NCBI GenBank assembly: GCA_905233455.1
Contig: CAJOES010000002.1
Span: 1 to 62,684 of the forward strand
DNA from: an uncultured Synergistales bacterium
GTDB lineage: Bacteria; Synergistota; Synergistia; Synergistales; Aminobacteriaceae
Direction: 5' to 3'
Length of the DNA: 62,684 nucleotides
Shown here: piece by piece, positions 25,168-44,678 of the stretch
How positions within the stretch are numbered: the stretch's first letter is position 1
How the letters are laid out: the number at the start of each line of letters is the position of its first letter
Notes under the pieces: generated by a model
What the model saw: only the letters and a program-made list of their open reading frames with translations
Told to the model about the DNA's origin: nothing
Database searches by the model: none
Position numbers and translations under genes: made by a program

Positions 25168-25179
25168 GAATATAATACG

Positions 25180-25212
25180 GCCTCCCGTTTGAGTTATGGC
25201 GGGAGGCTTTTT
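25180..25212 (+). terminator. Rho-independent terminator after flavodoxin
   Basis: Perfect 8-bp stem GCCTCCCG/CGGGAGGC (25180-25187 with 25200-25207) followed by TTTTT. Confidence 0.9.
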
Positions 25213-25223
25213 CATGCTTTCTG

Positions 25224-26003
25224 TTACTGCTTGGGCTCAGGATAAGCAATGATCCATGGCTGTTCCCTCTGATCTTCCGGAAGCATGGAATGATCAAACC
25301 ACATTGAATAAAACTTTTCCCCGTTGTTCACCGCGTAGCCGTCCTGCTTGTGATCGCAAGTGTCGTAAGGATCAGCCATAATCAGCACGTCATCAAGAGT
25401 AGACTCCGTTCCCATAGTGTCATAGCCGATAATCACGCGCCAGTGTCCGCCCCATTCAACGTTCTCGACCATAATGGGAATACCCCGCTTCAAGTTCTCC
25501 CACGCAAAAGCCTGAAACTCCTCATATGTGTCAAAATGCTTATGCGTAAGGCTGCTATCAGTTTTCCAGCCTAAACGCTCAAAGAATGCAAGCATGTCTT
25601 TCGGGTTCGTGCCAATAGGGTAAGGCCGGGTTTTCATCTCCTTTGCGAGTCTGGCCTCATCGTAGCCGGTCTCTCCGTAATAGTAGAGAAGCGTTAATCC
25701 TGCCGCAGGGCCGCAAGTATTTTCCCTTGTCTGTTGGTATGTCGGGTAATGCCTGAGTATGATGCGGTTATCGTTCGGCGATATGCCATCAAAGTAATCC
25801 GACGTTGTGTCGAAATAGATTGATGTCTTGTGATTGATGTCTGCTGGAGCAGATGAAGCACCTTCCGTTGTAGTGTCCGTCCCGTCAGGATAGGGAATTA
25901 CACGCACCGCATTACTGCCTTCTGCAGCATTGCCATATCCCATAAGAAGTATAACCATCAACGACACGCACAGCAGCTTTGCCGCAAAAAGATTTCTGTA
26001 CAT
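25224..26003 (-). CDS. C39-like papain-fold peptidase, exported
   Basis: 259 residues with an N-terminal membrane/signal segment (about 5-26). A C39_2-type domain has the nucleophile Cys in NTCGPAAGLTLLYYYG, His in GGHWRVIIGYD and Asp in MADPYD, so the triad is complete. The family includes peptidases that cut exported peptides and others with bacterial or cell-wall targets. It is the last gene of the STAS/SpoIIE/binding-protein operon, 12 bases after the ABC ATPase fusion. A periplasmic role processing the ligand of that system is inferred. Confidence 0.82.
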   Translation of the reverse strand: MYRNLFAAKLLCVSLMVILLMGYGNAAEGSNAVRVIPYPDGTDTTTEGASSAPADINHKTSIYFDTTSDYFDGISPNDNRIILRHYPTYQQTRENTCGPAAGLTLLYYYGETGYDEARLAKEMKTRPYPIGTNPKDMLAFFERLGWKTDSSLTHKHFDTYEEFQAFAWENLKRGIPIMVENVEWGGHWRVIIGYDTMGTESTLDDVLIMADPYDTCDHKQDGYAVNNGEKFYSMWFDHSMLPEDQREQPWIIAYPEPKQ

Positions 26004-26015
26004 TATGTTTGCCTC

Positions 26016-27128
26016 CTATATCTTGATTTCTATTCTGTTCAGCCCGTCAGAAAAATCATAGCGTATATTTTCTCCGGCTATCTTCCTCAGAATCATTACG
26101 CCCAAATGCACATCATCATCTGTTTCTTCTGCAATGCCGAACGGGTTGAATTTCCTTCCGCCGCTTGTCATTGTGATTGTTGTTGAGGAGTCCGCTTCAG
26201 AGTATGATATTTCGGCCGCAATATTTACCGCCTCACCACTGCCGTAACAGCCCGAAAGCATCTCATATACGAGTTCCTCACAGCAAAGCTCCAGCCTGTA
26301 CGCGAGCCTTGAGCTTATGCCGTATTTCTCCGTGAAACCGTGAATGCCTCCCTGCATCTCCATCAAGTCAAAATACCTGCTGGTTATCTCATAGCTGAAA
26401 TATTTCAGCTTCCTGATGAATGCTATAGTCTTCTCTTTCTGCGGTGAGTCAAAGATCTCTTCCGGCGTGCCCTCCTCATATATCCCGCCGTCAGCAAAGA
26501 ACAGTACACGGTTAGCTACTTCACGGGCAAAATTCATCTCGTGCGTAACGATAATCATAGTCATATCATGCTTGGCCAGCATTCGAATCATCGCAAGAAC
26601 TTCACCGACCATCGTTGGATCAAGCGCGCTGGTAGGCTCATCGAACAGAAGTACTTTCGGCTTCATCATCAGCGAACGGCATATAGCTATTCTCTGCTGC
26701 TGTCCTCCCGATAACTTTTCCGGCATTGCATGAGCTTTCGAGGTCAGACCGACTTTCGACAGCCAGTCCATAGCGTTGGATTCTGCCTGTGCACGGGGCA
26801 TTCCCAGAAGTTTTACGGGAGCAAGGCATAAGTTGTCTATGACGTTCATGTGTGAGAACAGATAGAATTTCTGATACACCATTCCCATTTTGAGACGTAT
26901 CCTGTTGATGTCCGCACGTCTTGCTGTAATCTCTTGCCCGTCTATGAATATCTTTCCGCTGTCAGGGACTTCAAGCAGTTCAAGCGAGCGGAGGAACACG
27001 CTTTTTCCGCACCCTGACCCGCCGATTATCGCTATGCGTTCACCCTCCTCAACATTAAGGCTGAGATTCCGAAGGACATGAAGACTCCCGAATGACTTGC
27101 ACAGATCTTTTACTTCTATAAGGCTCAT
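26016..27128 (-). CDS. Amino-acid-type ABC transporter ATPase fused to a degenerate RsbW-like domain
   Basis: 370 residues. Residues 1-240 are a complete GlnQ/HisP-type ATPase with Walker A GGSGCGKSVF, signature LSGGQQQR, Walker B LLFDEPTSALDP and the switch His in VTHEM. Residues about 245-370 are an HATPase_c_2/RsbW-like domain not usually attached to such ATPases (YRLELCCEELVYEML, then SGGRKFNPFG, then LGVMILRKIAG, ending in LNRIEIKI). In that domain the N-box Asn reads Glu and the nucleotide-binding Asp before the SGG loop reads Ser, so kinase activity is doubtful; STAS binding could persist. It overlaps the permease by ATGA. Confidence 0.85.
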   Translation of the reverse strand: MSLIEVKDLCKSFGSLHVLRNLSLNVEEGERIAIIGGSGCGKSVFLRSLELLEVPDSGKIFIDGQEITARRADINRIRLKMGMVYQKFYLFSHMNVIDNLCLAPVKLLGMPRAQAESNAMDWLSKVGLTSKAHAMPEKLSGGQQQRIAICRSLMMKPKVLLFDEPTSALDPTMVGEVLAMIRMLAKHDMTMIIVTHEMNFAREVANRVLFFADGGIYEEGTPEEIFDSPQKEKTIAFIRKLKYFSYEITSRYFDLMEMQGGIHGFTEKYGISSRLAYRLELCCEELVYEMLSGCYGSGEAVNIAAEISYSEADSSTTITMTSGGRKFNPFGIAEETDDDVHLGVMILRKIAGENIRYDFSDGLNRIEIKI

Positions 27129-27802
27129 GATATGGCTTCCTTTCTATGCCGGAGATAATCCGAAAACGAAAACAGGCCGTGAACTATATACGCCATTGCA
27201 AGATATATCAGCATTCCGATAATTATCGTTGCCATAGGCTGCATTGTCCGGGAAGCTATGTTGTTGATTACGCGGGTTAAGTCCGTGATTGATACGTAGC
27301 CTACAACACTCGTCCACTGAATCAGGTTCACTATTGCGGACTGGTATACGGGCTTTGCTATCCTCACAACCTGCGGAAGGGTTACGAGCCGGAATGCCTG
27401 AAACGCCGAAAACCCTAACGTTCTTGCTGCCTCAACCTGTCCGTGATCCGTAGCACTGATTGACGCTCTCAGAATCTCTGCTACATGCGCGGCAACATTC
27501 AGCGAGAAAGTTACTACGGCTATAGTTTCTGCGTCGAGACTGCTCCGGGCAAATATCCCGTAATACATCAGCATCAACAGCATCAATACCGGAGAACCTC
27601 TCAGAATCACGATATAGATTGTTGCGAGTGTCCGCAGAATCCTGAAGCCCGACATCCTAAGCGCACATATCACAGCACCGAGAACCGTACCGAATATCAT
27701 TGACAGTACCGAAATTCTTAGTGTCGCGTTAAAGCCCTTCAGTATAGTCCAGTAAGAGCCGCCCTGAATCAGCACCCTGTATAGTATCTGGTTAAGGCTC
27801 AT
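27125..27802 (-). CDS. Amino-acid ABC transporter permease
   Basis: 225 residues of the HisM/GlnP family with five membrane segments. The EAA loop is visible as AARTLGFSAFQAFRLVTLPQVVRIAKP, and the N-terminal ILKGFNATLRISVLSMIFG is typical of polar amino-acid permeases. It would form a homodimer in the inner membrane served by the fused ATPase. Encoded between three binding proteins and the ATPase, with 3-base and overlapping junctions. Confidence 0.92.
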   Translation of the reverse strand: MSLNQILYRVLIQGGSYWTILKGFNATLRISVLSMIFGTVLGAVICALRMSGFRILRTLATIYIVILRGSPVLMLLMLMYYGIFARSSLDAETIAVVTFSLNVAAHVAEILRASISATDHGQVEAARTLGFSAFQAFRLVTLPQVVRIAKPVYQSAIVNLIQWTSVVGYVSITDLTRVINNIASRTMQPMATIIIGMLIYLAMAYIVHGLFSFSDYLRHRKEAIS

Positions 27803-27805
27803 AGT

Positions 27806-28669
27806 TTAATCCTCGTCTTTTCTTATGTGCATAAACGTATTCCATGACAGATACGGTTCTGATAGAAGCACGCTGTCGGCAACATCAGGCTGAAATTCAA
27901 GAGACCTGTTGACCTCATACCAGAAGACAGCATCAGCCCTGCCAGACACTAACGCCGCTGTTCTCGCCCCCGCACTGACATTCACTACGTCTATGTTGAC
28001 GTGCAAACGCCGCCCGATCTCTGCAAGCACTGCCATGCTGTAACCTGCAGGAAGGCCGTTATCGTCCGTGAAATCCACCGGCGGAAGGTCTCCAGTTACT
28101 GCAACCCTTACCGTAGGAGCATTGCTGAAACGTTCAAACCTTATCGTGTCATTCTTTTTTCTGCCCGTTCCGTAAATGTAGCCGTATGTGTTGTCTTCAG
28201 GAAAATTCTTTATGTATTTCTGCTCAAGTCCTGCAAGCGTGTAATCATTGCGCATTGAGATTAATGCAGTGTTCCATTTTTCGAGAAGCTCTCTGTTGTC
28301 CTCCATGAAGCCGAAGCAAAGACTCATAGTCCCGGAATTAGCGATACATGAAGGTGTGTAATCCTTGTTGACCTTCAGAAGATATTCAGCGACAAAATCA
28401 GGAAGTATCATTTCTTCGATTTCGTCCCTGTTCAAAGCCATCTGCATCAGCATCAAGGAATCATAAAATTTCGCCGTCCCTGTTGAATGATCCCCGCCGA
28501 GAATCTGCCAGCCTCTTGTTGACCATGAATTTTTCAGTATCCTGTAGAAATCTTCCGGAGTAGTTTCAAGCCTCGTGAGAAACCCAACATCTAAATCATC
28601 ATCTGCAAGCACAGGACATACCAGCAAAGCCGAAATCATCAAAGCAATAACAAAAGTTTTTATCTTCAT
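27806..28669 (-). CDS. Substrate-binding protein with permuted lobe order, paralogue 3
   Basis: 287 residues with a signal peptide cut near VLA-DDD. The first half (DVGFLTRLETTPEDF, KFYDSLMLMQMALNRDEIEEM, DNRELLEKWNTALISMRNDYTLAGLEQKYI) matches what is normally the C-terminal half of an amino-acid binding protein. The second half (VRVAVTGDLPPVDF, LPAGYSMAVLAEIG, LVSGRADAVFW, LLSEPYLSW) matches the normal N-terminal lobe. The whole type II fold is therefore present in permuted order. Start chosen at ATG 28669 behind GGAGGTAGCA. A linker with YGYIYGTG joins the ancestral termini. Ligand unknown. Confidence 0.8.
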   Translation of the reverse strand: MKIKTFVIALMISALLVCPVLADDDLDVGFLTRLETTPEDFYRILKNSWSTRGWQILGGDHSTGTAKFYDSLMLMQMALNRDEIEEMILPDFVAEYLLKVNKDYTPSCIANSGTMSLCFGFMEDNRELLEKWNTALISMRNDYTLAGLEQKYIKNFPEDNTYGYIYGTGRKKNDTIRFERFSNAPTVRVAVTGDLPPVDFTDDNGLPAGYSMAVLAEIGRRLHVNIDVVNVSAGARTAALVSGRADAVFWYEVNRSLEFQPDVADSVLLSEPYLSWNTFMHIRKDED

Positions 28670-28671
28670 TG

Positions 28672-29547
28672 CTACCTCCAATACAGATTAAAGATATTAT
28701 TCTTGAAGTCCCACCAGTCCCAAGAACCTTTACGCTTGTCCGTCTTGCGCAGGTGTATGAACTTCTGCCACTCATAGTACGGCTCAGAGAGTATTACCCC
28801 CTGCGGCACGTCAGGCTGAATCCCTTTCCCCGACATATCCACCTCATACCAGAAGACGACATCAGCCCTTCCGGAAGCAAGCGAGGCTGTCCTTGCTCCT
28901 GCGTCCACATTCAGCAGCTCAACATTCATGTGAAGTATATTTGCTATCTCTGCTAGTACTGCCGTGTTGAATCCTGCCGGGCTTCCGTCTGATGCAATGA
29001 AATCTATCGGGGGCAGGTCTCCGGTTACTGCCGCTTTGATTGCAGGTGCACCATCAAAGTGAAAGAACTTCACAGGTTCAGGAGCATTCATGCCGGGAGA
29101 AGCTATATATTTCCCTTCAAGTGCCGCCAGCGTCCAGTTGTCCCGAAGAGTCTTCAGAGCCTCATTGAACTTGTCCCGCAATTCTCCGCCGTCCTCACGG
29201 AAACCGAACGCAAGCCCGCTTCCCTTTGAGCGCAGGACGAGGAATGATTCATAGTCGTCATTCTGATTCATGAGGTATTCAGCCGCAAAGTCCGGTAATA
29301 CCATCTCGCGAATCTCTCCGGCATTCAAGGCCATCTGCATTGAAGTCAATGTGTCGTAAAACTTTACCGTTATATCCAGTGCTTCATCGTTGGGAGCAAA
29401 ATTTTTCCGCCATATTTCACTGAACTCTTCTTCCGTTGAATTGAGCTTGGAGAGGAGGCCAAGACGCAAAATTTTCTTCTCTACAGCAGCACGTGATATT
29501 CCTGCAGCAAGCATCAGGAATAAGACTGCGTAACAAACTTTCTTCAT
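28672..29547 (-). CDS. Substrate-binding protein with permuted lobe order, paralogue 2
   Basis: 291 residues with a signal peptide ending near SRA-AVE. The order is again lobe 2 (LRLGLLSKLNSTEEEF, VKFYDTLTSMQMALNAGEIREM), then the closing helices (LRDKFNEALKTLRDNWTLAALEGKYI), then lobe 1 (IKAAVTGDLPPIDF, SPAGFNTAVLAEIA, LASGRADVVFW, ILSEPYYEW). It starts one base after the stop of paralogue 1. Differences from paralogue 3 lie mostly in the first lobe, which suggests different ligands or partners. Confidence 0.8.
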   Translation of the reverse strand: MKKVCYAVLFLMLAAGISRAAVEKKILRLGLLSKLNSTEEEFSEIWRKNFAPNDEALDITVKFYDTLTSMQMALNAGEIREMVLPDFAAEYLMNQNDDYESFLVLRSKGSGLAFGFREDGGELRDKFNEALKTLRDNWTLAALEGKYIASPGMNAPEPVKFFHFDGAPAIKAAVTGDLPPIDFIASDGSPAGFNTAVLAEIANILHMNVELLNVDAGARTASLASGRADVVFWYEVDMSGKGIQPDVPQGVILSEPYYEWQKFIHLRKTDKRKGSWDWWDFKNNIFNLYWR

Positions 29548-30462
29548 TTATTGCGCCCTTCCTATGATCAGATCAGTATCCCATTCGTAATAAGGATCAG
29601 ACAAAATCACTCCGTCAAGAGAATCCTTCATTACGCCTTTAAGGTTTCTGCCCTTCACTTTTGCGGGAGTCTTCAGCCCTTCCGTGCTCCTGTACCAAAA
29701 CACGACATCTGCCCGTTCTGATGCCAGAGCCGCAGAACGTCCGCCAGCGTCCACGCTGATTAGCCGTATATTGCGCTGAAGCCTTCTGCCTATCTGGGCA
29801 AGCAGTGCAGTGTTATAGCCTGTCGGTGTTCCGTCTGAAGCAATGTAGTCGATCGGAGGCAGATCCCCCGTAACTGCAACACGTATAGTCCTTGCGCCCT
29901 TGTACTCCTGAAACTTTACCGGCATGGGGTCATTCATGCTCATATCACGAATGTATATCCTCTCCAGATTCGCTAGAGTCCCGTCTTCCTTCATTGATGC
30001 TATTGCACGGTTGAACGCCTGCTGAAGCCCGGTATTGCCGCGCTTGAAGCCGAATGATATTGTTGACGGCATCATATTGAGGGAAAACAGAATATCGTAG
30101 TTCGGATTGTTCGCGATGAGGTACATTCCTGCTGCTTCAGGAAGTGCAATTTCATCTATCTTCTTTGACCTCAAAGCCATTTGCATTGCGAGAAGTGAAT
30201 CATAGAAATGCACAACCCTGCGTGTTTTCGCAAGCGAGCCTATGAAGCCTTCAAGCCTGTCTTCCTCTGCCCATTCGCTTTCATCTTCCGGAATCAGCGG
30301 TGCTAATGCCTTGCGCAGGTCATCAAGCCCGCCCTGAAACTCTGCCTCAGTCGTGCCGAGATATGTCAATACGCCGGAATCAACGACTTCTTCACGGGAT
30401 GAAGCAAAACATGATGTACACAGCATAACAGCAAAAATTACTGCAGCTACAATTTTTCTCAC
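29548..30462 (-). CDS. Substrate-binding protein with permuted lobe order, paralogue 1
   Basis: 304 residues with a signal peptide ending near CFA-SSR; the Cys at TSC could make it a lipoprotein, though no clean lipobox is seen. The order is the same as in the two following genes: GVLTYLGTTEAEF, HFYDSLLAMQMALRSKKIDEI, LQQAFNRAIASMKEDGTLANLERIYI, then IRVAVTGDLPPIDYI, TPTGYNTALLAQIG, LASERADVVFW, ILSDPYYEW. An acidic insert of about 25 residues (EDESEWAEEDRLEG) in the first lobe is unique to this copy. It lies 16 bases after the SpoIIE-type sensor gene. Confidence 0.8.
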   Translation of the reverse strand: MRKIVAAVIFAVMLCTSCFASSREEVVDSGVLTYLGTTEAEFQGGLDDLRKALAPLIPEDESEWAEEDRLEGFIGSLAKTRRVVHFYDSLLAMQMALRSKKIDEIALPEAAGMYLIANNPNYDILFSLNMMPSTISFGFKRGNTGLQQAFNRAIASMKEDGTLANLERIYIRDMSMNDPMPVKFQEYKGARTIRVAVTGDLPPIDYIASDGTPTGYNTALLAQIGRRLQRNIRLISVDAGGRSAALASERADVVFWYRSTEGLKTPAKVKGRNLKGVMKDSLDGVILSDPYYEWDTDLIIGRAQ

Positions 30463-30478
30463 AGTAACAAAATCTCCC

Positions 30479-32521
30479 TTACTCTAAAATTTTTCTGACG
30501 GTTAAAATATTTTTCCCGTCCTTATGCTTGTAGGATACGTTATCCATATTCTTTTTCACAAGATATATTCCCAAGCCTCCTACATTCCTTTCATCAGCAG
30601 ACAGCGTAACGTCAGGGTCAGGATTCATCAGGGGATCGTAAGGCGTTCCGGAATCAGTGAAGGTTATCACTGCCGACAAAGGATTTTCATGAATCTCTAC
30701 CCTTACTGACGCATTGCCGGTCTCGGGTGCATAAGCATAATGCGCTATGTTCACGAAAATTTCTTCTGCGGCCAAGTCTATCTGCATTTGTGTTTTGGGC
30801 GGGCAGTCTGCGGCTTCTAGCTTTTCATCAATAAAGCTAATGACCTGCTCAAGGTTATTCACGTCAGCTTCTAGGGTGATTTCATTGCTCCCGAAATATC
30901 TCACGCATAACATAGTCATATCATCGAATTGCGGTGCATCTCCCGTGAAATCATCTACGGACTTCTTCATTGACGCTAAAATTTCTTCCGCCGTGCCGTC
31001 AAGCGTGGTGTTGAGTGCTTCAAGCATTCTGTCAGTTCCGTAAAGCTCATCATCAGAGTTTGTTGCTTCTGCTACACCGTCAGTGTACAGATACAGATTA
31101 TCGCCGGGATTAAGCGTAAATTCATTCTCCCTGAATTTCATTCCCTCCATTGTTGCGACCGCAGGACTGTTCCTGCCCTTCAGTAGCTCATACTTTCCGC
31201 CAGCCCTGAATACGGCAGGATACTCATGACCGGCATTTGAGGCAGTAACCTTGCCTGAAGAGATCTCCAGAATCCCAAGCCACACAGTAACGAACAGATC
31301 CGCTTCATTGCCCTCGCATAACTGCCTGTTCACGTCCGCAAGAATCTCTGCCGGACTCTTAGCCCCTCCGGTCTGCGCAAGGTTCTTGATGAGCGTCTTG
31401 GCCGTCATCATGAACAGTGCCGCAGGGACTCCCTTTCCGGAAACGTCCGCCATAACAAGCCCCAAATGATCATCATCAATCATGAAGAAATCGTAGAAAT
31501 CTCCCCCGACTTCTTTTGCCGGTGTCATCGTAGCGTATATCTCGAATTCTTTTCGTTCCGGGAAATCACGCGGAAGAATATCGGCCTGAATCTGCGCTGC
31601 TATGTTCAGTTCGGCTTTTGTCTGTTCCTGCTCACGGGTTATGCGCGTCAGGTCCTCAACATACCGCAAAATATCAGCTTCCATAACGTCAATAGTTTTT
31701 GCGAGCTGGCCAATCTCGTTGCTGACAGTGATATTTTCGCCTAACGGGAGTTCAGGCCGGGTGTTCTCGTGTGCAAAACGCATTGTTTCATCCGCAATTA
31801 TCTGAATCGGCCTGATGAGATTCCTGCTCAGGTACAGCCCGTAACACACAAGCACCAGCAATAACAGCACTCCCGCAGCACTAAGCACGCTGTGAATGTA
31901 TCTATAGCGTATATTGTCCAGTTCCTCCATGCGCCGCTCAACACCCAATACCGCAATGATTTCGCCGTTCTCATCCCTGAAAGGCTGAAGGACTGCAACA
32001 TGATTCCCGGATTCTTCAACTTCATTGCCCTCCGGACGGTAAATAGATATTTCGACTCCTTCTTCATGCTCATCATAGATTCTCCTGAAGGCCGACAAAT
32101 ATCTTCTGTCCGTCTGCGTAAACCTGAATCCGCTCGTGTATTCGTGGTCTTGGGGGTATATGTCGGTATTGATTGAGTCTATGATGAATTCTGCGTCCTC
32201 GTATTCCTTCCCTGACGACACAAACGCATAGATATATGTAGCTCTCTGCGTCCTGACGAGAGTACGCCATATTCCCCTGATCCTGCGGTTCTCGTCCTGC
32301 CATTCTTCTGAGGCATAATCCCTGTGCTTCACAAAGTCCGGTGGAAGATACGCCGCCGCAGTCCTGGCAGTGTTGAATGCACTTTCTGCGTACTGCCTCT
32401 CTATTGCCCCGGTGAACTGGTAATACCCTATGTTGCTTGTTATTAGCGTGAGGAGTGCAAGAACAAGAAAAACCCCTGCAAGTATCTGTACTGCTATATT
32501 ATGTTTTATCTTACTTAACAT
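30479..32521 (-). CDS. Membrane sensor with HAMP, SpoIIE-type PP2C phosphatase and RsbW-type kinase domains
   Basis: 680 residues. A membrane helix (about 10-32) is followed by a Cache-like extracytoplasmic domain (to about 215), a second helix, and a HAMP and coiled linker (about 240-305). The SpoIIE phosphatase domain comes next (AAQIQADILPRDFP, EVGGDFYDFF, MADVSGKGVPAALFM, SNAGHEYP, LYTDGVAEATN, FDDMTMLCVRYF). The C-terminal HATPase_c_2 domain is intact (AAEEIFVNIAHYAY, TFTDSGTPYDP, GGLGIYLVKK). It therefore joins the two opposing enzymes of a partner switch, phosphatase and kinase for a STAS protein, under one external sensor. The STAS gene is four genes upstream. Confidence 0.92.
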   Translation of the reverse strand: MLSKIKHNIAVQILAGVFLVLALLTLITSNIGYYQFTGAIERQYAESAFNTARTAAAYLPPDFVKHRDYASEEWQDENRRIRGIWRTLVRTQRATYIYAFVSSGKEYEDAEFIIDSINTDIYPQDHEYTSGFRFTQTDRRYLSAFRRIYDEHEEGVEISIYRPEGNEVEESGNHVAVLQPFRDENGEIIAVLGVERRMEELDNIRYRYIHSVLSAAGVLLLLVLVCYGLYLSRNLIRPIQIIADETMRFAHENTRPELPLGENITVSNEIGQLAKTIDVMEADILRYVEDLTRITREQEQTKAELNIAAQIQADILPRDFPERKEFEIYATMTPAKEVGGDFYDFFMIDDDHLGLVMADVSGKGVPAALFMMTAKTLIKNLAQTGGAKSPAEILADVNRQLCEGNEADLFVTVWLGILEISSGKVTASNAGHEYPAVFRAGGKYELLKGRNSPAVATMEGMKFRENEFTLNPGDNLYLYTDGVAEATNSDDELYGTDRMLEALNTTLDGTAEEILASMKKSVDDFTGDAPQFDDMTMLCVRYFGSNEITLEADVNNLEQVISFIDEKLEAADCPPKTQMQIDLAAEEIFVNIAHYAYAPETGNASVRVEIHENPLSAVITFTDSGTPYDPLMNPDPDVTLSADERNVGGLGIYLVKKNMDNVSYKHKDGKNILTVRKILE

Positions 32522-32524
32522 GAT

Positions 32525-33541
32525 TCATATATTAACATGATTCATATAGTTTTCTATTCTGGTTTTTACGTTCTCCTGCAGATTCCTGAAAAAGAACAGG
32601 TAATCATATACATGATATGCCCCTTCAGGAAGAAGAGATACAACAGCAGGATATTCATGCGCGTCTATGTCCGGGATTTTCATGATCCCCCGTTCCGTGT
32701 CAAGATACCCGCCGCAGAACTCTGAAACCTCACGCGTAATTTTCCCGCTGTAATCCGTGAAACATGCTCCCCGGTTCAGGCTTTTGTCCGCATATGTGTC
32801 ATCTGTTCTCCAGTTGAGCGGATTCACGGCAAATGCTTTGCGCCCGGCAGGGTAAAACGCCGTAGCAGTTATTCCGGGAGCTTCACACTCAAAGCTGATT
32901 ATGACTCCCGTATCACGTTCAGACTGTGCAGGCTTCATGTGAGGGTATTTCTCCGCCGTATCCGGAGTGAAAGCCCAGCCTATAGCGTACACAGCCACGA
33001 GCCGTTCATGCAGTGCCTTATCCCCAAAATACTCCTGCATCAGACGGTAACACATATCTGCTCCCTGTGAGAATCCTGCAAGAATTATGGGCCGTCCGTT
33101 ATTCTCGTGCTCAAGGTAATACGAGAATGCCGCTGAAACATCCTCATACGCAACAGCAAAGAATTTTTCACGTTCCGATTCAGGGAGTTCATACACCTTC
33201 ATTGCCGCCTGCCTGTAATACGGTGCATACATCCTTGTATATGCCTCGTAAATCCCGCGCTCCATGTTAAGCGCACCAGCAAAATTTTTCTTCGTCTTGT
33301 CATCAGACAGAGACATATTATGTTCGTCCTTCATGTCAACTGTAGGGCATAACAAAAAGAGGTCAGCAGGTTTTTCTCTGCCGCCCTCCTGAAAATATAC
33401 CCAGTTCTCCGCTGAGGAATAAATGTTTGCGTCCGGTTCATCATGCCCGACGTAAACAGGGAAGAATAATAATACTGAAAGCGCGGTAACAGCAGAGCAC
33501 AATAGAAACAGATTTTTTCTGCTTACTGCTGTCCTGTTCAT
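32525..33541 (-). CDS. DUF3089-like alpha/beta-hydrolase, membrane anchored
   Basis: 338 residues with an N-terminal hydrophobic anchor (about 11-28). The nucleophile elbow is GFSQGAD near 160, and the block DLFLLCPTVDM is typical of DUF3089-type hydrolases. A His near the C-terminus (HVYDYLFFFRNL) could complete the triad. It probably acts in the periplasm as an esterase or peptidase-like hydrolase. Substrate unknown. It sits in the middle of the STAS/SpoIIE operon, 3 bases before the sensor gene. Confidence 0.72.
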   Translation of the reverse strand: MNRTAVSRKNLFLLCSAVTALSVLLFFPVYVGHDEPDANIYSSAENWVYFQEGGREKPADLFLLCPTVDMKDEHNMSLSDDKTKKNFAGALNMERGIYEAYTRMYAPYYRQAAMKVYELPESEREKFFAVAYEDVSAAFSYYLEHENNGRPIILAGFSQGADMCYRLMQEYFGDKALHERLVAVYAIGWAFTPDTAEKYPHMKPAQSERDTGVIISFECEAPGITATAFYPAGRKAFAVNPLNWRTDDTYADKSLNRGACFTDYSGKITREVSEFCGGYLDTERGIMKIPDIDAHEYPAVVSLLPEGAYHVYDYLFFFRNLQENVKTRIENYMNHVNI

Positions 33542-33554
33542 GTCATCAGCCCTG

Positions 33555-34232
33555 TTACTTTACGGGGAAATCAAAATATGTGTCCGGGTATGGCTCATCA
33601 TTCAGCGTGAAGTGCCACCATTCCGTAGCTAACGGCCTGAATCCGTGCTTGGTCATTGCCTCACGCAGAATCATTCTGTTGCTGTACTGTTCTTCGGTGA
33701 TATTCTTGTAGTCCGGGTGAGATTCCTCGCCGAAATAGTCGAACGTCCCGCCCATGTCCGCTTCTTTCTCCGTGTTCATATCAAACAGCGTCAGATCAAC
33801 AGTGCTTCCCCTGCTGTGTCCGGACTTGTAGTCAATATATCCCTGATCGAACAAAACTGACTTATCGAGGTTGGGATAAAAATACTGCTTCATGCGGGTA
33901 TCTTCAACGTTCTCCGCCCATTGCGCAAAATGAGTTACTGCCCTCTGCGGTCTGTATGCGTCATATATCTTCAGCCTGTAACCCTTCGTGATGAGTTCGT
34001 CGCTGACATCCTTTAGTGCTTTGGCCGCCTCTTTGGTCAGCATTGCTACAGGGGTTTCATAGCCGTTGATCCTGTCGCCCACAAAGTTATACGTTGAATA
34101 GTAGCGTATCTCCAGTATTGCATCAGGCACTGCTTCAGACAGCAGAACGAAATCCGAATTATCATAGGGATCTGCACCGAACGCAGAACCTGCCATCAAA
34201 AAAATAATAACTGCAAGCAAAAATTTTCTCAT
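33555..34232 (-). CDS. D-alanyl-D-alanine dipeptidase (VanX/DdpX family), exported
   Basis: 225 residues with a signal peptide (cut near FGA-DPY). Zinc and catalytic motifs are complete: SGHSRGSTVDLTL (SxHxxGxxxD) near 138, EWWHF near 205 and the substrate-contact Arg in YDAYRPQRAV. It cleaves D-Ala-D-Ala. Because it has a signal peptide, it more likely recycles or scavenges wall-derived dipeptide, like DdpX, than confers vancomycin resistance. It lies between the acyltransferase and hydrolase genes of the operon. Confidence 0.92.
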   Translation of the reverse strand: MRKFLLAVIIFLMAGSAFGADPYDNSDFVLLSEAVPDAILEIRYYSTYNFVGDRINGYETPVAMLTKEAAKALKDVSDELITKGYRLKIYDAYRPQRAVTHFAQWAENVEDTRMKQYFYPNLDKSVLFDQGYIDYKSGHSRGSTVDLTLFDMNTEKEADMGGTFDYFGEESHPDYKNITEEQYSNRMILREAMTKHGFRPLATEWWHFTLNDEPYPDTYFDFPVK

Positions 34233-34233
34233 C

Positions 34234-35313
34234 TTAATATTTACCTCCTTTAAGGATTTCCCGGCGTTCCTGCACCATGCAGAAGACAGTACAGCAGATC
34301 ACCGAGAATACCCAAACCATAACGGATTTGGCGAAAACTTCAGGCGTTACGCTCTCAACATACCAGCGATCCGGACTCAGCTTGATATACGTGTGCAGAA
34401 GGTCAGAAGCAATCATAGCGAATATGCCGTGCAGCAGCAGGAATCTGAATGAATTTCTGCCGACAAAAGCTAAAATCTTCGTGATATGTTCCGGACATAA
34501 CTTGCAGAACACATACACCGCATATCCTCCCGTGAATGTCTGCACGAAAAACGGTATCACGCTCCATCTTCCGACAGTTCCGAGCTGGCTCGCAAACGCG
34601 TAATCATTGCCGCAGAAATGGTACATCACTGCATGAAGCACCACAGCCGCAGCCGCAACCGGCACGCTTGGCCTGATACTGCCGGAATGCCGGGAGAGCC
34701 ATGCACCGCACAGCATTATCGCCGCATATACGGGCGTTGCAGTGAGACTCCATGATACATGACTGCCGAGACCGTACAGCAATATTCCCGCCGATAACAG
34801 CACAACGCATGACACGCACAAACACGCAGTATCCTTCAGGGCATAACCTGAAACAGGATAGAACACCATATACGAAAGCACCATAGTCCAGACGAACCAC
34901 ACTGGAGAAATGCACTCAAACAGTATTCCGCCGACTCCCCATTCAGGAAGCAGGGCAGAAGCAAATTCCGGCCTCAAGTACGTATGTATTGCATCACGCA
35001 ACCAGTCCTGCGCAGTGCAGCCGTGAAACGCCATGCAGTATATTCCGCCGAACAGCAACAACAGCATCGTATATTTCAGCGCGGGGAGAAACAGAACCTT
35101 AAGCCTGTGCATCACATTCTCCCTTAATGTGCGCTCATCACGGAAATTCCAGCCGGACAGCACAAAGAAAAACGGAACAAACAGCCATATCAATTCGCAC
35201 AAAATTATGTCTGCCGTGCCGTTTTCGGGCCTGTACACAAGATGATAGATACTCACTAAAATTATTCCGAGACCTTTAGCCGTATCTATATCTGCTTTGC
35301 GGCTGGTGTTCAT
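34234..35313 (-). CDS. Acyltransferase 3 family membrane protein
   Basis: 359 residues with about 10 membrane helices. The N-terminal motif RKADIDTAKGLGIILVSIYH and the FVPFFFVLSGWNF segment (normally FFxxSG) mark the OafA/WecH-type acyltransferase 3 family, which moves acyl groups onto sugars or wall polymers. The catalytic His would be the one in SIYHLVYRP. Its start shares a base with the stop of the STAS gene, so the two are translationally linked. Acceptor unknown. Confidence 0.85.
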   Translation of the reverse strand: MNTSRKADIDTAKGLGIILVSIYHLVYRPENGTADIILCELIWLFVPFFFVLSGWNFRDERTLRENVMHRLKVLFLPALKYTMLLLLFGGIYCMAFHGCTAQDWLRDAIHTYLRPEFASALLPEWGVGGILFECISPVWFVWTMVLSYMVFYPVSGYALKDTACLCVSCVVLLSAGILLYGLGSHVSWSLTATPVYAAIMLCGAWLSRHSGSIRPSVPVAAAAVVLHAVMYHFCGNDYAFASQLGTVGRWSVIPFFVQTFTGGYAVYVFCKLCPEHITKILAFVGRNSFRFLLLHGIFAMIASDLLHTYIKLSPDRWYVESVTPEVFAKSVMVWVFSVICCTVFCMVQERREILKGGKY

Positions 35314-35612
35314 TATTGCTCTATGTTCAGAATCTCGCTGAAGCCAGTTACCTCGAATATGTCCATGATCTCCTGACTGACATTCTTCACCGTCATTCCG
35401 CCTTGCTTGTTCATCACCTTCTGTGCCTTGAGCAGTACCCTCAAGCCCGCCGACGAAATATACACAAGGTTTGCCATGTCGATGATCAGAGTCTTCACGC
35501 CTTCAAGAGCGTTCTTCAGTTCCGCTTCAAGCTGGGGTGCTGTTGACGTGTCGAGACGGCCGTCAAGTGATATTACGAGTTCTGTTGCTTTCAGTTCTTT
35601 GCTGATTAACAT
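35313..35612 (-). CDS. STAS-domain anti-anti-sigma factor-like protein
   Basis: 99 residues forming a complete SpoIIAA/RsbV-type STAS domain: LVISLDGRLDTSTAPQLE, then LIIDMANLVYISSAGLRVLL with the phosphorylatable Ser, then FEVTGFSEIL. In partner switching its phosphorylation by an RsbW-like kinase and dephosphorylation by a PP2C decide its binding. Both activities are encoded downstream in a single protein. It is the first gene of an 11-gene operon. No sigma factor gene is nearby, so the output may be an enzyme or transporter rather than transcription. Confidence 0.92.
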   Translation of the reverse strand: MLISKELKATELVISLDGRLDTSTAPQLEAELKNALEGVKTLIIDMANLVYISSAGLRVLLKAQKVMNKQGGMTVKNVSQEIMDIFEVTGFSEILNIEQ

Positions 35613-35717: not shown

Positions 35718-37139
35718 CTAAAGCAGAGAAGAATCTTTCACGGGACATACAGCAGAAGGCCGTACTACCTTCATCATATCTACAATTTTCTTGATCCACC
35801 CGCCGTAGAATATCTCACACACTATCGAAGCCGTACCCATAATGTTATTTTCATCATCCATCAATGCAACACCCCTGCACCCGCCGTAACAGTGCTTCGT
35901 GAACCTGCAATTCCTGCACCTGTCATTGACCTTCAGGAAGTCGCTGGCTCTCATGTCTATCAGCTTCATGTATTCCGGAGTCGATATGCAGTCCGCAAAA
36001 TTCATCTCCGACAGTTTCGGGTAATCCTCCTGCATCTTCATACCTGCAAGAAGCCCGCACATCAATGCGCGCCCGTCCGGAGATATGTACGAACTTGACC
36101 TAGCATGACCGCATAACAGCGTTTCATCAGGATCGTATGATTCGTTATAGCCCACTATCCTATATTCATCCGGCCTTTGTGGCGAGGCCGCGAAGAATGA
36201 CGTAAACATTATTTCCGCAGGCATACCGTCCTCATAGTAATGCGGAATGTAATCAAGATACGCTTGAAACAGCTCCTTCAAGGCTATATTCTTATTCTCG
36301 CTGTGAGTCTTCCATTCGCCGATATTGCCCGCATATGCCGTCTTAATGAGTCTTACTCCCAGCGAAGCAAGATGATTTATGCTGTCCCTTAACGTGTGCA
36401 TGTTGCCCTTATGAATCGTCATGTTTGCACCTGTACGGAAGCCCATATCACGGCACAGTTCGAATGCCCGGTCAATCAGCTTCTCCGCACCGGGCACGCC
36501 CCGAAGCCAGTCATGCCAGCCTTCAGTCCCGTCATAGCTCATCAGGAATGAAGGGTGAACATTGCGCTTGTCCAGTTCCGACAGAAATTTTTTGTTCACC
36601 AGTGCACCGTTTGAATATATCTGGGTTATTACGATATTGCGTTCGGTCAGGGCATCAACGATTTCGAGAAAGTCATCACGGATCAGCGGTTCTCCTCCGG
36701 TAAGAGATACGGACATTACCCCGTTTTCTGCCAGCTGGTTCACTATGTCCATTGCGGATTTATGCGGAAGTTCACTTGCTGTAACTTCAGGTGCGGACAT
36801 ATAGCAGTGCTTGCACCTGTAATTACACTTCCCTGTTACTGACCACTGAACATGACCGATATAGCGCGAAGGATATTTTTTGTAGAGCTGTTCTGCCTTG
36901 AGTCCTTCACCGGGCCGACACTTCTCGATTATCCCGCTTTTCTCTTTATCGGCTATTATCTGCTTCAGGTCGTCCGCAATGAAGGATTCCGAAACGTCAA
37001 CAGAACCATCGCATAATTCAACGGCCTGCATCTGACGCGGCATGAGGAATTCAGCATTGCCGGTGGTGCTGTCAACGATTGCGTAAGGGAGCTTTTCCCA
37101 CCCGCGAAGAAAATATTTATCTTTAAGCCTGTAATACAT
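35718..37139 (-). CDS. Radical SAM/SPASM peptide maturase
   Basis: 473 residues. The N-terminal about 90 residues look like a PqqD-type peptide-recognition domain (YRLKDKYFLRGW, ALVD-like strand, AVELCDG). The radical SAM cluster motif is CNYRCKHC (Cys 105, 109, 112), followed by SLTGGEPLIRDDF. The C-terminal SPASM region has Cys in LLCGH, ALMCGL and FADC and the cluster DRCRNCRFTKHCYGGC, plus a later Cys, enough for two auxiliary iron-sulfur clusters. Enzymes of this build install thioether, C-C or epimerised residues in ribosomal peptides. It lies just downstream of two Nif11-type precursor genes and is the obvious modifying enzyme. The kind of modification is not predictable here. Confidence 0.9.
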   Translation of the reverse strand: MYYRLKDKYFLRGWEKLPYAIVDSTTGNAEFLMPRQMQAVELCDGSVDVSESFIADDLKQIIADKEKSGIIEKCRPGEGLKAEQLYKKYPSRYIGHVQWSVTGKCNYRCKHCYMSAPEVTASELPHKSAMDIVNQLAENGVMSVSLTGGEPLIRDDFLEIVDALTERNIVITQIYSNGALVNKKFLSELDKRNVHPSFLMSYDGTEGWHDWLRGVPGAEKLIDRAFELCRDMGFRTGANMTIHKGNMHTLRDSINHLASLGVRLIKTAYAGNIGEWKTHSENKNIALKELFQAYLDYIPHYYEDGMPAEIMFTSFFAASPQRPDEYRIVGYNESYDPDETLLCGHARSSSYISPDGRALMCGLLAGMKMQEDYPKLSEMNFADCISTPEYMKLIDMRASDFLKVNDRCRNCRFTKHCYGGCRGVALMDDENNIMGTASIVCEIFYGGWIKKIVDMMKVVRPSAVCPVKDSSLL

Positions 37140-37149
37140 TTACTCGCCT

Positions 37150-37182
37150 CAAAAAGCCATTGCCCCCGAAAGAGCAACAGCC
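37150..37182 (-). terminator. Hairpin with T tail downstream of the dead precursor copy
   Basis: On the minus strand the stem GCTGTTGC/GCAATGGC with loop TCTTTCGGGG is followed by TTTTT. It is a near copy of the element at 37520-37553 and lies just before the radical SAM gene. Being only moderately stable, it would let part of the transcripts through. Confidence 0.7.
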
Positions 37183-37205
37183 TGAAATAATTTACCGGTA
37201 ATCTG

Positions 37206-37498
37206 CTAGAACGCCACGGCTGCCTCGCATACGCATTCCATGATCATTCCGCATTTATCCTTAAACACACCGCCAGCAACTGCCTTGAGTTCATCCTCGT
37301 TTACTTCGTCCATGCTGATGTTGAAGCCGTGAGCCTTTGCTACCTTTCCTGCAGCCTCCTCAAGTGCCTTCTGTGCCTCTGCCTAAAGCCCTTTTGCCGC
37401 TAACAGTGCCTTCAATGCCTCAAATGATGCCTTCTCAAGCTCTGCCTTTACTGCCGCGTCCTTTGATGCCAACTCGAAAAATTTTTGCTGTCTGACAT
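37206..37498 (-). pseudogene. Nif11-type RiPP precursor, pseudogene
   Basis: A tandem copy of the intact precursor at 37580-37864, about 80 percent identical by eye. One base is missing after codon 5 (AAAAAT against AAAAAGT), shifting the frame. A CAG to TAG change at 37383-37385 adds an in-frame stop to the ancestral frame. Past the lesions the leader end reads MDEVNEDELKAVAGG and the core VFKDKCGMIMECVCEAAVAF. That core has three cysteines, against two in the intact core, so the two copies once encoded different products. Confidence 0.85.
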
Positions 37499-37519
37499 GA
37501 TTTATTATCTTCCTTTCGT

Positions 37520-37553
37520 AAAAAAAGCCGCTGCCCCCGAAAGAGCAACAGCC
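37520..37553 (-). terminator. Hairpin with T7 tail downstream of the intact precursor
   Basis: On the minus strand GCTGTTGC/GCCGCTGC-type pairing (37527-37534 with 37545-37552) is followed by seven T. It probably terminates most precursor transcripts, keeping peptide in excess over the maturase. Confidence 0.8.
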
Positions 37554-37579
37554 CGAAAATATTTTAACCTAAAAGAGGT

Positions 37580-37864
37580 TTACCAAGTTACGTTGTCGCA
37601 AGTCCACTTCATGATAACTCCGGTGCAGCTATAACCGCCAGCAACTGCCTGGAGTTCATCCTCGCTTACTTCGTCCATGCTGAGGTCGAAGCCGTGAGCC
37701 TTTGCTACCTTTCCTGCAGCCTCCTCAAGTGCCTTCTGTGCCTCTGCCTGAAGCCCTTTTGCCGCTAACAGTGCCTTCAATGCCTCAAATGATGCCTTCT
37801 CAAGCTCTGCCTTTACTGCCGCGTCCTTTGATGCTAACTCGAAAAACTTTTTGCTGTCTGACAT
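37580..37864 (-). CDS. Nif11-type leader RiPP precursor peptide
   Basis: 94 residues. The helical Nif11-like leader (SDSKKFFELASKDAAVKAEL, then the Ala/Lys-rich middle and FDLSMDEVSEDELQ) ends in AVAGG at residues 73-77, a double-glycine cleavage site. The predicted core is YSCTGVIMKWTCDNVTW, 17 residues with two cysteines and several aromatics. The maturase gene lies downstream and the exporter genes upstream, all on one strand. The ATG is preceded by AAGGAAG. Modification and activity of the product are unknown; bacteriocin or signal are both possible. Confidence 0.9.
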   Translation of the reverse strand: MSDSKKFFELASKDAAVKAELEKASFEALKALLAAKGLQAEAQKALEEAAGKVAKAHGFDLSMDEVSEDELQAVAGGYSCTGVIMKWTCDNVTW

Positions 37865-38029: not shown

Positions 38030-38755
38030 TCAAAGGTTTCCCGGCTTTACCTCATTCTCTCCCGATACATCCTTCGGTGCTTCTTCGTCCGCAACCAGCT
38101 TTCCGTCCCTGAAGCGCAATACCCTCTGACTCCATGTCGCTATATCCGGCTCATGAGTAACGAGAATTATTGTTGTGCCCTCCTCATGCAGTGCCGTGAA
38201 TATCTGCATGATCTCAACAGTAGTTTTAGTGTCAAGTGCTCCTGTAGGTTCATCTGCCATCAGTATTGGAGCTTTCCCCACTATTGCACGGGCTATAGCA
38301 ACTCTCTGCTGCTGGCCTCCGCTCATCTGAAGCGGTCTCTTGTGTATCTGATCTCCAAGTCCGACGCTCTCCAGTGCCTCCTTAGCCATCTTGCGCCGTA
38401 CTGATGACGGGACTCCGCGATACATTAACGGCATCTCTACATTCTCAAGCGCATCAGCTTTCTGCAGCAGGTTGTAGCCCTGAAACACAAAGCCTATCTT
38501 ATGGTTGCGTATGTCTGCAAGTGCCGCACGGCTCTGACCCTTCACGCTTATTCCGTCCAGAATGTATTTGCCGGAAGTCAGCACGTCAAGACAGCCGAGA
38601 ATGTTCATCATCGTTGATTTTCCTGACCCTGAAGGCCCCATAATGCACACAAATTCTCCCTTGTTGATTGAGCACGTTACGTCATTTAGGGCTTTAAGCT
38701 CTATATCTCCGGTCTTGTAGATCTTCACGAGGTTTTCTACCTGAATTATTGCCAT
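38030..38755 (-). CDS. MacB/LolD-type ABC exporter ATPase
   Basis: 241 residues with all ABC motifs: Walker A GPSGSGKSTM, Q-loop FQGYNLL, signature MSGGQQQR, Walker B ILMADEPTGALD and the switch His in VTHEPDIA. It drives the MacB-type permease at 41241-42464, with which it forms a split MacB. Start taken at ATG 38755 behind AGGTGCAGGA rather than the GTG nine bases earlier. The last gene of the exporter operon. Its broken paralogue is at 426-1015. Confidence 0.93.
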   Translation of the reverse strand: MAIIQVENLVKIYKTGDIELKALNDVTCSINKGEFVCIMGPSGSGKSTMMNILGCLDVLTSGKYILDGISVKGQSRAALADIRNHKIGFVFQGYNLLQKADALENVEMPLMYRGVPSSVRRKMAKEALESVGLGDQIHKRPLQMSGGQQQRVAIARAIVGKAPILMADEPTGALDTKTTVEIMQIFTALHEEGTTIILVTHEPDIATWSQRVLRFRDGKLVADEEAPKDVSGENEVKPGNL

Positions 38756-38767
38756 TTCCTGCACCTT

Positions 38768-39937
38768 CTATTTCACTGCCTGAGCATTTATGACGAGCTT
38801 TTCACCTTCAGCAAGACTGCCCTTAACCAGCTGAGTCCATCTGTTGTCGGAAATTCCCGTAACTATATCTATTGCATGTTTCAGCTTTCCGTTTTCTTCT
38901 GTCCATACAGTAGCTTCATTGAGGGCTTTCTGCTCCTCAAGCAGCCCGGTATCATACGATATTGACTTCAGCAGTTCTTCCGGCGGCGTGAATCTCAATG
39001 ACGCTATAGGCAGGCGCAGTACGTTCCTGCATGTTTCCGTCTCAATCGAAACATTTGCGGTCATGCCCGGCTTCAGCTTCAGGTCTTTGTTGTCCACGTT
39101 GATTATGACAGTGTATGTTACAACGCTGTCTGAAGTCTCCGGAGCTATGCGTACCTGAACGACTTTTCCGTTAAAGTTCTCCTCCGGGAATGCGTCAATC
39201 CTGAACGTTACGTTTTGCCCGGCCTCAATGTGCCCTATGTCCGCCTCGTCTACTTTCGTCTTGATCTGCATCTGCGTGAGATCTTTCGCGATCTTGAACA
39301 GCGTCGGAGTCTGGAATCCTGCCGCCACAGTCTGCCCCGAATCCACCTGCCGGTCAATCACAACGCCCGTTATAGGCGAGGTTATGCGCGTATAGTTCAG
39401 GTCAGTGCGTTTGCGCTCAACCTGCGTCCTGTACTGCTCAACCCGCGATAATGCTTCCTCCAATGCGGCCTGTTTCATCTCAACGTCAGCTTCAGCAGTG
39501 TCAACCTCACTCTGTGCTATCAGCTTTTTGCTCAGAAGTTCTTTCCCCCGCGTGTATTTTCTCTGGGCATCCTTCAGGGCGGCACGCGCGCTTTTCACCG
39601 AAGCAAGAGCCACAGCAAGACTCGATTCTGCCTCTTTCAGCTCAAGTTTTGCTACGGAAGGATCAATCAGTGCTATCAGCTGTCCGGCCTGTACAACGGA
39701 ATTGAAATCAGCGTATATATCCTCAATCCTGCCTGATACCTGCGTTCCGACTTCAACGACATCAACCGCGCTGAGTTCGCCTGTTGCAGTTACTGTTGAC
39801 GTAATATCACCGCGTGTAATTTCTGCCGTAGTGAATGAGTACTTTACTGACCTGTCCCGGGTTGCGAACTTCCATACGCCGAAACCTGCACCAACAATAA
39901 GCAGCAGCAAAAAAAGTTTCTTTATTCCAGCAATCAT
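38768..39937 (-). CDS. MacA-like periplasmic adaptor, copy 2
   Basis: 389 residues: membrane anchor (about 5-22), split lipoyl domain, helical hairpin (about 95-185, AEADVEMKQAALEEALSRVEQ region), and beta-barrel with VRIAPETSDSVVTYTVII. It ends compactly in GEKLVINAQAVK, without the Gly/Arg-rich tail of copy 1. Bridges MacB and TolC. The next gene in each direction is spaced by 2-12 bases, so the four exporter genes are one transcript. Confidence 0.9.
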   Translation of the reverse strand: MIAGIKKLFLLLLIVGAGFGVWKFATRDRSVKYSFTTAEITRGDITSTVTATGELSAVDVVEVGTQVSGRIEDIYADFNSVVQAGQLIALIDPSVAKLELKEAESSLAVALASVKSARAALKDAQRKYTRGKELLSKKLIAQSEVDTAEADVEMKQAALEEALSRVEQYRTQVERKRTDLNYTRITSPITGVVIDRQVDSGQTVAAGFQTPTLFKIAKDLTQMQIKTKVDEADIGHIEAGQNVTFRIDAFPEENFNGKVVQVRIAPETSDSVVTYTVIINVDNKDLKLKPGMTANVSIETETCRNVLRLPIASLRFTPPEELLKSISYDTGLLEEQKALNEATVWTEENGKLKHAIDIVTGISDNRWTQLVKGSLAEGEKLVINAQAVK

Positions 39938-39939
39938 AA

Positions 39940-41238: not shown

Positions 41239-41240
41239 AG

Positions 41241-44182: not shown

Positions 44183-44186
44183 GGGG

Positions 44187-44660: not shown

Positions 44661-44678
44661 TTTATATTTTTTCCTGCC

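Follow-up and report, generated by a model that had tools for sequence, protein, structure and literature searches.

What does a partner-switching module control when it is encoded together with a nutrient importer and without a sigma factor? The question is raised by an eleven-gene operon on contig CAJOES010000002.1 of an uncultured Synergistales bacterium. The window analysed here is this whole contig (C2; 62,684 bases), part of a 2.49 Mb draft genome whose close relatives are rumen and other gut Synergistaceae, some of them labelled Fretibacterium. The operon joins a STAS protein and a SpoIIE phosphatase–RsbW kinase fusion to an ATP-binding cassette (ABC) importer of the polar-amino-acid type, and the ATPase of this importer ends in a tail with a predicted RsbW fold. 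In our judgement the chances are even that partner switching sets the importer post-translationally, with the STAS protein docking on the ATPase tail. The docking, the sign of the control, the signal, and the ligand are the parts that we infer. The computation itself establishes the gene linkage, the predicted fold of the tail and its residue losses, the intact residues of the kinase, the intact phospho-site of STAS, and that no sigma-B/F-type factor was found in the genus.

The ABC ATPase and its RsbW-fold tail

The ATPase gene (26016..27128, on the minus strand like the rest of the operon) encodes in residues 1–241 an ordinary GlnQ/TcyN-like ATPase (PF00005, 120.5 bits). Its best NCBIfam matches are ATPases of ectoine and amino-acid importers, the best 25 of 189 matches all lying below their cut-offs. 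The ATPase is encoded together with a BPD permease (27125..27802; PF00528, 52.3 bits) and family-3 substrate-binding proteins (SBPs), as in a polar amino acid ABC importer. The C-terminal 134 residues (26019..26420) form the tail.

Searching the PDB with the tail sequence returned nothing credible, and fold comparison alone worked. HATPase_c_2 matches the window tail weakly (E 0.035), and 38 of 46 aligned tails match it at E ≤1, the best at 4.5e-8. An AlphaFold model built from these 46 tails reached a predicted local distance difference test score (pLDDT) of 89.3 and a predicted template-modelling score (pTM) of 0.82. In structure comparisons, for which Foldseek was also run, its best solved matches span Z 12.7–14.3: UsfX (Z 14.3, root-mean-square deviation (rmsd) 2.4, 119 aligned), SpoIIAB (Z 14.1, rmsd 2.6, 127 aligned), RsbW (Z 13.3, rmsd 2.3, 112 aligned), SiaB (Z 13.3, rmsd 3.7, 133 aligned), and the RsbW part of Rv1364c (PDB 3ke6; Z 13.2, rmsd 3.3, 115 aligned). 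The top matches are anti-sigma kinases solved with a STAS partner or a sigma factor. LvrC is next at Z 11.9, and ordinary histidine kinases stay at or below 8.7. As a profile, the tail matches the active RsbW domains of these operons at E 8.5e-13, compared with 0.17 to 0.63 for four unrelated control families.

In all 46 tails the N-box Asn is replaced (by E, T, D, Q, G or A), and so is the G1 Asp (by S, C, A, G, Y or F); two adjacent Glu of the N-box helix are invariant (46/46). Because both the Asn and the Asp are lost throughout, the tail looks like a pseudokinase, i.e., a domain with the GHKL/SpoIIAB fold that appears unfit as an active RsbW kinase. The first-pass annotation had described this tail as RsbW-like, which holds for the predicted fold and fails for the two key nucleotide-binding residues.

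The partner-switching module

The first gene of the operon (35313..35612) encodes an RsbV/SpoIIAA-like STAS switch protein (PF01740, 60.1 bits; TIGR00377, 71.1 bits, above cut-off) with the phospho-site motif YISSAGL. The motif Y[VIL]SSAGL is present in 18/18 small STAS proteins of related loci, and YISSAGL in all seven STAS–kinase fusions found there. The second component (30479..32521) combines a membrane sensor, a HAMP-like region (21.3 bits, below the cut-off of 25), a SpoIIE phosphatase domain of the PP2C type (PF07228, 164 bits against a cut-off of 25), and an RsbW serine kinase domain (PF13581, 78.8 bits). The N-box Asn, the G1 Asp, and GGLG are retained in all 12 aligned SpoIIE-linked RsbW domains, the one in the window included. 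Given this retention and the losses in the tail, the operon encodes a kinase that is expected to be functional and, in the tail, an RsbW fold that is expected not to bind ATP. In a plasmid collection, 349 records match the SpoIIE protein, none of them over >80% of its length.

RsbW-type kinases classically target sigma factors with region 3. Neither the list of open reading frames (ORFs) nor Pfam revealed a sigma factor among the operon genes. Of 37 genus genomes, 35 contain a single match to sigma-70 region 3; the exceptions are G008 (74% complete), with none, and G023, with two, one of them partial. Judged by ORF length, the single region-3 protein is presumably the housekeeping factor. A sigma-B/F-type sigma factor was not found in the 37 genus genomes, and therefore the switch probably has another output. 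As no cognate sigma factor was found, the module is classed not as a sigma-B system but as partner switching whose output is probably something other than a sigma factor. The genome of the window encodes two further, ECF-like (extracytoplasmic function) sigma factors that have region 2 and lack region 3.

STAS domains occur in other settings in the genus as well. One is fused to an APH-like phosphotransferase domain (L042, 7458–8648, and relatives; loci and genomes are designated here by handles in L and G), and many genus genomes have several copies of ORFs, roughly 400 residues long, that match STAS.

Linkage of the module to the importer

Besides the genome of the window, 36 genus genomes were searched. 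A full-length relative of the ATPase, at 71–81% identity, is encoded in 34 of them; the tail-bearing copies in G007 and G036 are all more distant. In the phylum, the tail profile matches (E ≤1e-5) in 59 of 185 genomes, 43 of them genus members, and these matches include EamA-like tails (see below) and some SpoIIE-linked RsbW domains. Among the 20 match-less genomes listed (106 more exist), none belongs to the genus. A scan of genome contigs gave 62 tail loci. They come from Synergistota, from Selenomonadaceae and Quinella, and from Lachnospiraceae and other Clostridia; Butyrivibrio sp. VCD2006 (Lachnospiraceae) and Selenomonas ruminantium S137 are among the carriers of tail-bearing importers. 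Many of the genus loci contain STAS, often doubled, SpoIIE with RsbW either fused or separate, binding proteins, permease, and ATPase, and sometimes a STAS–phosphotransferase fusion. The recurring core is STAS, SpoIIE with RsbW, binding proteins, permease, and the ATPase with its tail. The proposal, made from the sequence of the window, of a partner-switching set without a sigma factor and tied to a transporter is borne out by these relatives, many of which keep the core genes together, a single region-3 match being typical.

The strength of this linkage was measured on those named tail loci (n=32) for which 8 kb or more of upstream sequence was available, the window itself being in neither count. 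STAS or SpoIIE lies within 10 kb in 16/32 tail loci versus 0/16 tail-less sister ATPases of the genus (Fisher p 3.0e-4, kinship ignored). For Synergistota alone the counts are 13/24 versus 0/16 (p 3.1e-4, kinship likewise ignored), and three of the eight other loci (L110, L126, L127) are linked. When the 8 kb filter is lifted from the tail-less controls, 0/20 are linked, four of them with less than 8 kb upstream (p 9.7e-5).

The linkage recurs beyond Synergistota in L119, L125, L126, and L127, and in L110 with SpoIIE only. L119 and L125, the latter with too short an upstream region, are linked yet stand outside the 32. The order in L126 and L127 is STAS, SpoIIE, RsbW, binding protein, permease, ATPase, that is, the order of the window minus its cargo. 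In L110, the SpoIIE gene follows shortly after that of the ATPase, and STAS has no match nearby. In a tree of the ATPases, which leaves out the tail remnant of L119, the window-type Synergistota tails form one supported branch of 15 rows (99/98); the Clostridia (L125–L128), the Lachnospiraceae-like loci (L109, L110, L121), and the paralogues linked to SBP-permeases form separate branches. All non-Synergistota tail genomes that were tested (16/16, out of 23 loci) encode SpoIIE-family phosphatases, SpoIIE being the only component looked for.

Some loci show unusual arrangements. In L119 (9747–10387; Clostridiales) the permease and the ATPase share an apparent internal deletion, and most of the tail is an ORF of its own, followed by a permuted SBP (see below), between the STAS and the SpoIIE/RsbW genes; the arrangement is a remnant or an assembly join. 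A single chain of 899 residues in L067 (7994–10693; genome G039, of the same order and a different family) combines SBP, permease, ATPase, and RsbW-like tail. A conserved protein of about 205 residues heads the operon or precedes SBP1 in L042 (515–1132) and 13 more genus loci and matches no Pfam family above cut-off. Its identity as an RsbW relative was considered and not established, being suggested only weakly (hhalign probability 5.7 and 20.7).

A membrane protein with a homologous tail

The genome of the window contains another STAS/SpoIIE locus, on contig C14 (L053). Its neighbours are an LPG-synthase-C-like protein and an EamA-like pair of membrane proteins, and the second member of the pair ends in a homologue of the ATPase tail. 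Seven such EamA-like tails, taken as a profile, match the ATPase tail at E 1.8e-17 and active RsbW at 7.4e-7. By motif position, 7/7 have Arg in place of the N-box Asn and Tyr in place of the G1 Asp. An ATPase and an unrelated membrane protein, both from STAS/SpoIIE loci, therefore share a dead-looking RsbW fold, and this is the strongest hint that the tail acts as a receiver. Tentatively, with a chance that we put a little short of even, a catalytically dead copy of RsbW fused to ABC ATPases and to an EamA-like protein could act as a receiver for STAS. A phosphatase/kinase that senses the outside would then turn uptake on and off directly, bypassing transcription, and several tail-bearing transporters could share one pool of STAS.

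Proposed mechanism and alternatives

In the mechanism we propose, the membrane-bound SpoIIE–RsbW protein would sense something extracellular. Its RsbW domain would phosphorylate STAS, and its PP2C domain would dephosphorylate it. Unphosphorylated STAS would dock on the RsbW-fold tail of the ATPase, like SpoIIAA on SpoIIAB, and would alter the assembly or turnover of the ATPase, whereas phosphorylated STAS would be released. The tail, no longer needing ATP, would serve solely as a landing pad.

Several observations weigh against this mechanism. STAS or SpoIIE is not nearby in the other 16 of the 32 tail loci (11/24 of Synergistota; L112, L113, L116, L120, and L121 of the eight others). As the genomes compared are related, the counts depend on one another. 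Among the tail-less controls, L148 has a STAS–kinase-like fusion 19 bases away, which was not counted as STAS. The tail also occurs next to SBP-permeases or fused with them (L054, L060–L067) without STAS or SpoIIE in the fetched loci; L126, in which such a pair directly precedes STAS, is an exception among these paralogues, and a paralogous tail-bearing ATPase of G008 has a SpoIIE match at a distance of 1.6 kb. G030 (86% complete) has the tail and no SpoIIE match, and G006 (97% complete) has no STAS match. Whether relatives have these genes scattered, the check named in the first-pass annotation, came out divided: STAS or SpoIIE is close by in half of the tail loci and not in the other half, though 36/37 genus genomes encode SpoIIE and 36/37 encode STAS somewhere. 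Since the tail occurs without STAS or SpoIIE nearby, it may have an older role that does not involve STAS.

Such a role could be that of an old dimerisation or ligand-binding regulatory domain, resembling other domains at the C terminus of ABC ATPases. The tail would then make no contact with STAS, and the switch genes would be co-transcribed and act elsewhere. Tail ATPases of Selenomonadaceae and most of the SBP-permease-linked paralogues, which lack STAS and SpoIIE nearby, agree with this explanation, but it leaves unaccounted for the linkage of 16/32 versus 0/16, its repetition in Clostridia, and the fact that the best fold matches of the tail are STAS-binding kinases; we regard it as rather unlikely. 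It is unlikely, too, that information flows in the reverse direction, with the importer as the sensor. In that case occupied SBPs would change the ATPase, the tail would take up or release STAS, and STAS or SpoIIE would report nutrient status, e.g., to the EamA-like protein. The high ratio of SBPs to permease (three in this operon, seven genes in L050) would suit a sensor, as would the other tail-bearing membrane proteins in the genus, but the SpoIIE protein already has a membrane part of its own and a HAMP-like region.

Proposals that replace either the docking partner or the output of the switch appear far less probable. The tail and the active RsbW domain are homologous, and SpoIIAB and RsbW are dimers; the tail could accordingly dock the RsbW domain and not STAS, a mixed dimer holding the SpoIIE protein at the transporter. 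We consider this very improbable, as RsbW is a separate gene in several relatives. Least probable, to the point of being nearly negligible, is a switch acting on transcription by way of some unusual target, for example an ECF sigma factor, the operon being an ordinary case of nutrient-locus regulation. The two region-2-only sigma factors of the genome would be available for it, but the operon has no sigma gene, the searched genus genomes have no second full region-3 sigma factor, and the classical preference of RsbW-type kinases for region-3 factors also argues against it.

Comparison with known systems

Docking of STAS on the ATPase tail has its nearest parallel in the MlaFEDB system, in which the STAS protein MlaB binds the ABC ATPase MlaF and the contact surface includes a Thr that can be phosphorylated (PMC7367683, accessible text). 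Both cases have a single-domain STAS protein with an ABC transporter and involve the C-terminal end of the ATPase. The tail of MlaF is about 25 residues long, and phosphorylation of MlaB is left open in the accessible part of that paper; the window, in contrast, has a 134-residue RsbW-like fold as its tail and encodes a kinase and a phosphatase within the operon. The importer is not an Mla (MCE) lipid transporter: no MCE domain was present among the ten operon proteins scanned, and the permease is of the BPD_transp_1 and not of the MlaE type.

With Rsb/SpoIIA partner switching the operon shares a STAS protein with a phospho-Ser motif, a PP2C phosphatase, and a GHKL serine kinase. It differs in that no sigma-B/F-type target was found in the genus and the transporter ATPase carries a pseudokinase copy as a fused domain. 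Rv1364c of M. tuberculosis, an RsbU–RsbW fusion for which we know of no link to a transporter, likewise has phosphatase and kinase domains in one chain. GlnPQ-type importers have the same ATPase, permease, and SBP_bac_3 families, and SBP-permease fusions occur among the paralogues of the window system; swapped SBP halves and the pseudokinase tail set the window importer apart. SiaA–SiaD is a non-canonical partner switch whose STAS output is not, or is not shown to be, a sigma factor, and SiaA was a weak NCBIfam match in the operon scan. The same holds for the outputs of SypA/SypE, BtrU/V/W, RbaV, and HmpU/V/W, none of which is said in the accessible text of the source to end on an ABC importer (PMC8256260).

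A partner-switching module is repeatedly linked to an ABC importer whose ATPase carries a pseudokinase-like domain, and this linkage is real. Among the papers listed in searches of the open PMC library (titles and openings of abstracts, subscription journals lying outside), none describes an ABC importer with an RsbW-like tail, such an importer under STAS/PP2C control, or a natural circular permutation of a family-3 binding protein. Whether and how STAS phosphorylation regulates an ABC transporter is a question posed in the accessible text of PMC7367683. As the sensor, phosphatase, kinase, STAS, docking-type domain, and transporter are apparently all encoded in one operon, the question becomes testable with a handful of purified proteins. 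If the proposed mechanism is true, it would provide a receiver derived from a dead kinase, a direct link from outside signals to amino-acid-type nutrient uptake in rumen bacteria, and a new regulatory principle for transporters.

Circularly permuted binding proteins

The three binding proteins of the operon, SBP1 (29548..30462), SBP2 (28672..29547), and SBP3 (27806..28681), are SBP_bac_3 proteins by domain match and profile comparison, and in all of them the halves are swapped relative to the canonical order. A profile of 50 permuted SBPs aligns to the ancestral Gln/Arg binding protein AncQR in two blocks of reversed order (172–275 to 10–104, and 54–151 to 133–230), and it is on this swapped-order match that the predicted permutation rests. 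SBP1 was also modelled (pLDDT 89.7, pTM 0.83), and structure searches aligned the model in sequence order to two-lobed binding proteins. The two lobes of such proteins resemble each other, and for this reason structure searches cannot prove permutation.

In a survey with half-domain profiles, 208 ORFs of the fetched loci had matches. The order was swapped in 178 of them (126 distinct sequences) and normal in one; 23 matched a single half, and six, mostly long permease fusions, had several matches. The lone SBP of normal order is in L119, beside a tail-less importer. Permuted SBPs were considered as a hallmark of the tail system and rejected, because 27/27 SBPs with domain matches in the 22 loci built around a tail-less ATPase (L068, L069, and the 20 controls) are swapped too, most of these 27 belonging to the other, tail-less type of importer. 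The swapped order is therefore a trait of the SBP lineage. Tandem duplication of SBP modules is a plausible source of the permutation; paralogous permeases contain up to seven such modules, reached in the 2,252-residue chain of L061.

Permeases of 1,260–2,252 residues with three to seven tandem SBP modules (L061, 5166–11924; L062–L065) adjoin paralogous tail-bearing ATPases. The permuted family-3 SBPs include some that keep the usual-looking motif GITVTDER (e.g., L069, 7943–8740), which we take to have a role in ligand binding.

Operon organization and variable cargo

The first-pass annotation placed eleven head-to-tail genes here, and all of them are present on the minus strand from 35612 to 25224. 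Its domain assignments are confirmed by Pfam for the C39_2 peptidase, ABC ATPase, BPD permease, the three SBP_bac_3 proteins, SpoIIE with HATPase_c_2, DUF3089, M15, and acyltransferase 3, and STAS is confirmed too. The genes are tightly spaced as it said, with gaps of −10 to +16 bases and not the −4 to about 17 it gave. The gap of −10 stems from the listed TTG start of SBP3 at 28681; with the ATG four codons further in (near 28669), which is probably the true start, the gap is about +2. It had seen no terminator within the cluster, and the internal minus-strand sites are indeed only weak ones (5–6 pairs, within coding sequence). Between 25000 and 38200, terminator-like sites number 8 against 10.2 expected in shuffles, and promoter-like sites are at chance (22 found, 18.5 ± 4.4 expected). 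The two strongest terminator-like sites are outside the cluster, at 25179–25208 and 37554–37525. The former, a hairpin of 11 pairs scored only on the plus strand, lies between the operon and a convergent flavodoxin gene.

Between STAS and SpoIIE lie an acyltransferase 3 membrane protein (34234..35313; PF01757), a VanX-family D-Ala-D-Ala dipeptidase of M15 (33555..34232; PF01427, 135 bits; NCBIfam VanX, 218.7 bits, below the cut-off of 320; signal-peptide-like start by eye), and a DUF3089 alpha/beta-hydrolase-like protein (32525..33541; PF11288, 174 bits). A C39-like peptidase (25224..26003; PF13529, 34.5 bits; signal-peptide-like start by eye) ends the operon. Neighbours were counted on the same strand within 12 kb in 22 genus loci, and these counts are lower bounds as the ORF caller drops genes that overlap an over-extended ORF (in G011, for instance, the permease is visible at L010 and missed at L036). 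SpoIIE is present in at least 11 loci, STAS in 9, a STAS fusion in 5, and the EamA-like protein with the tail in 6. For the acyltransferase and the LPG-synthase-C-like protein the count is 5 each, for VanX 1, and for DUF3089 and C39 0. Such low counts make VanX, DUF3089, C39, and the acyltransferase seem variable cargo, and the varying neighbours mark the STAS–SpoIIE interval as a cargo slot.

A strict eleven-gene system was accordingly rejected, the four cargo genes being missing from most of the 22 loci, and the idea that envelope enzymes are part of the mechanism finds no support in these counts. The suggestion of a wall-derived ligand receives no support from conservation and is unsupported so far. 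VanX points to D-alanine or dipeptides as a substrate, as a lead and no more. In L037 and L097 it stands in line with the importer, and in L116, from a Quinella genome, about 4 kb upstream of the binding-protein genes; DUF3089 precedes and adjoins SpoIIE in L124.

Upstream neighbourhood

The 105 bases between STAS and the radical SAM gene preceding it contain no reported terminator-like site, and therefore the transcript could start further upstream. This gene, for a radical SAM/SPASM-like maturase directly before STAS, follows a Nif11-like leader peptide gene that lies 440 bases upstream (35718–37864 for the pair, minus strand). The leader peptide has a GG motif and a Cys-containing core by eye and matches no Pfam or NCBIfam family. 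The strong minus-strand site at 37554–37525, a 13-pair terminator-like hairpin, is located between the two genes. The pair is probably a locus for a ribosomally synthesised and post-translationally modified peptide (RiPP), and efflux/export ABC genes (38030–46520) lie upstream of it.

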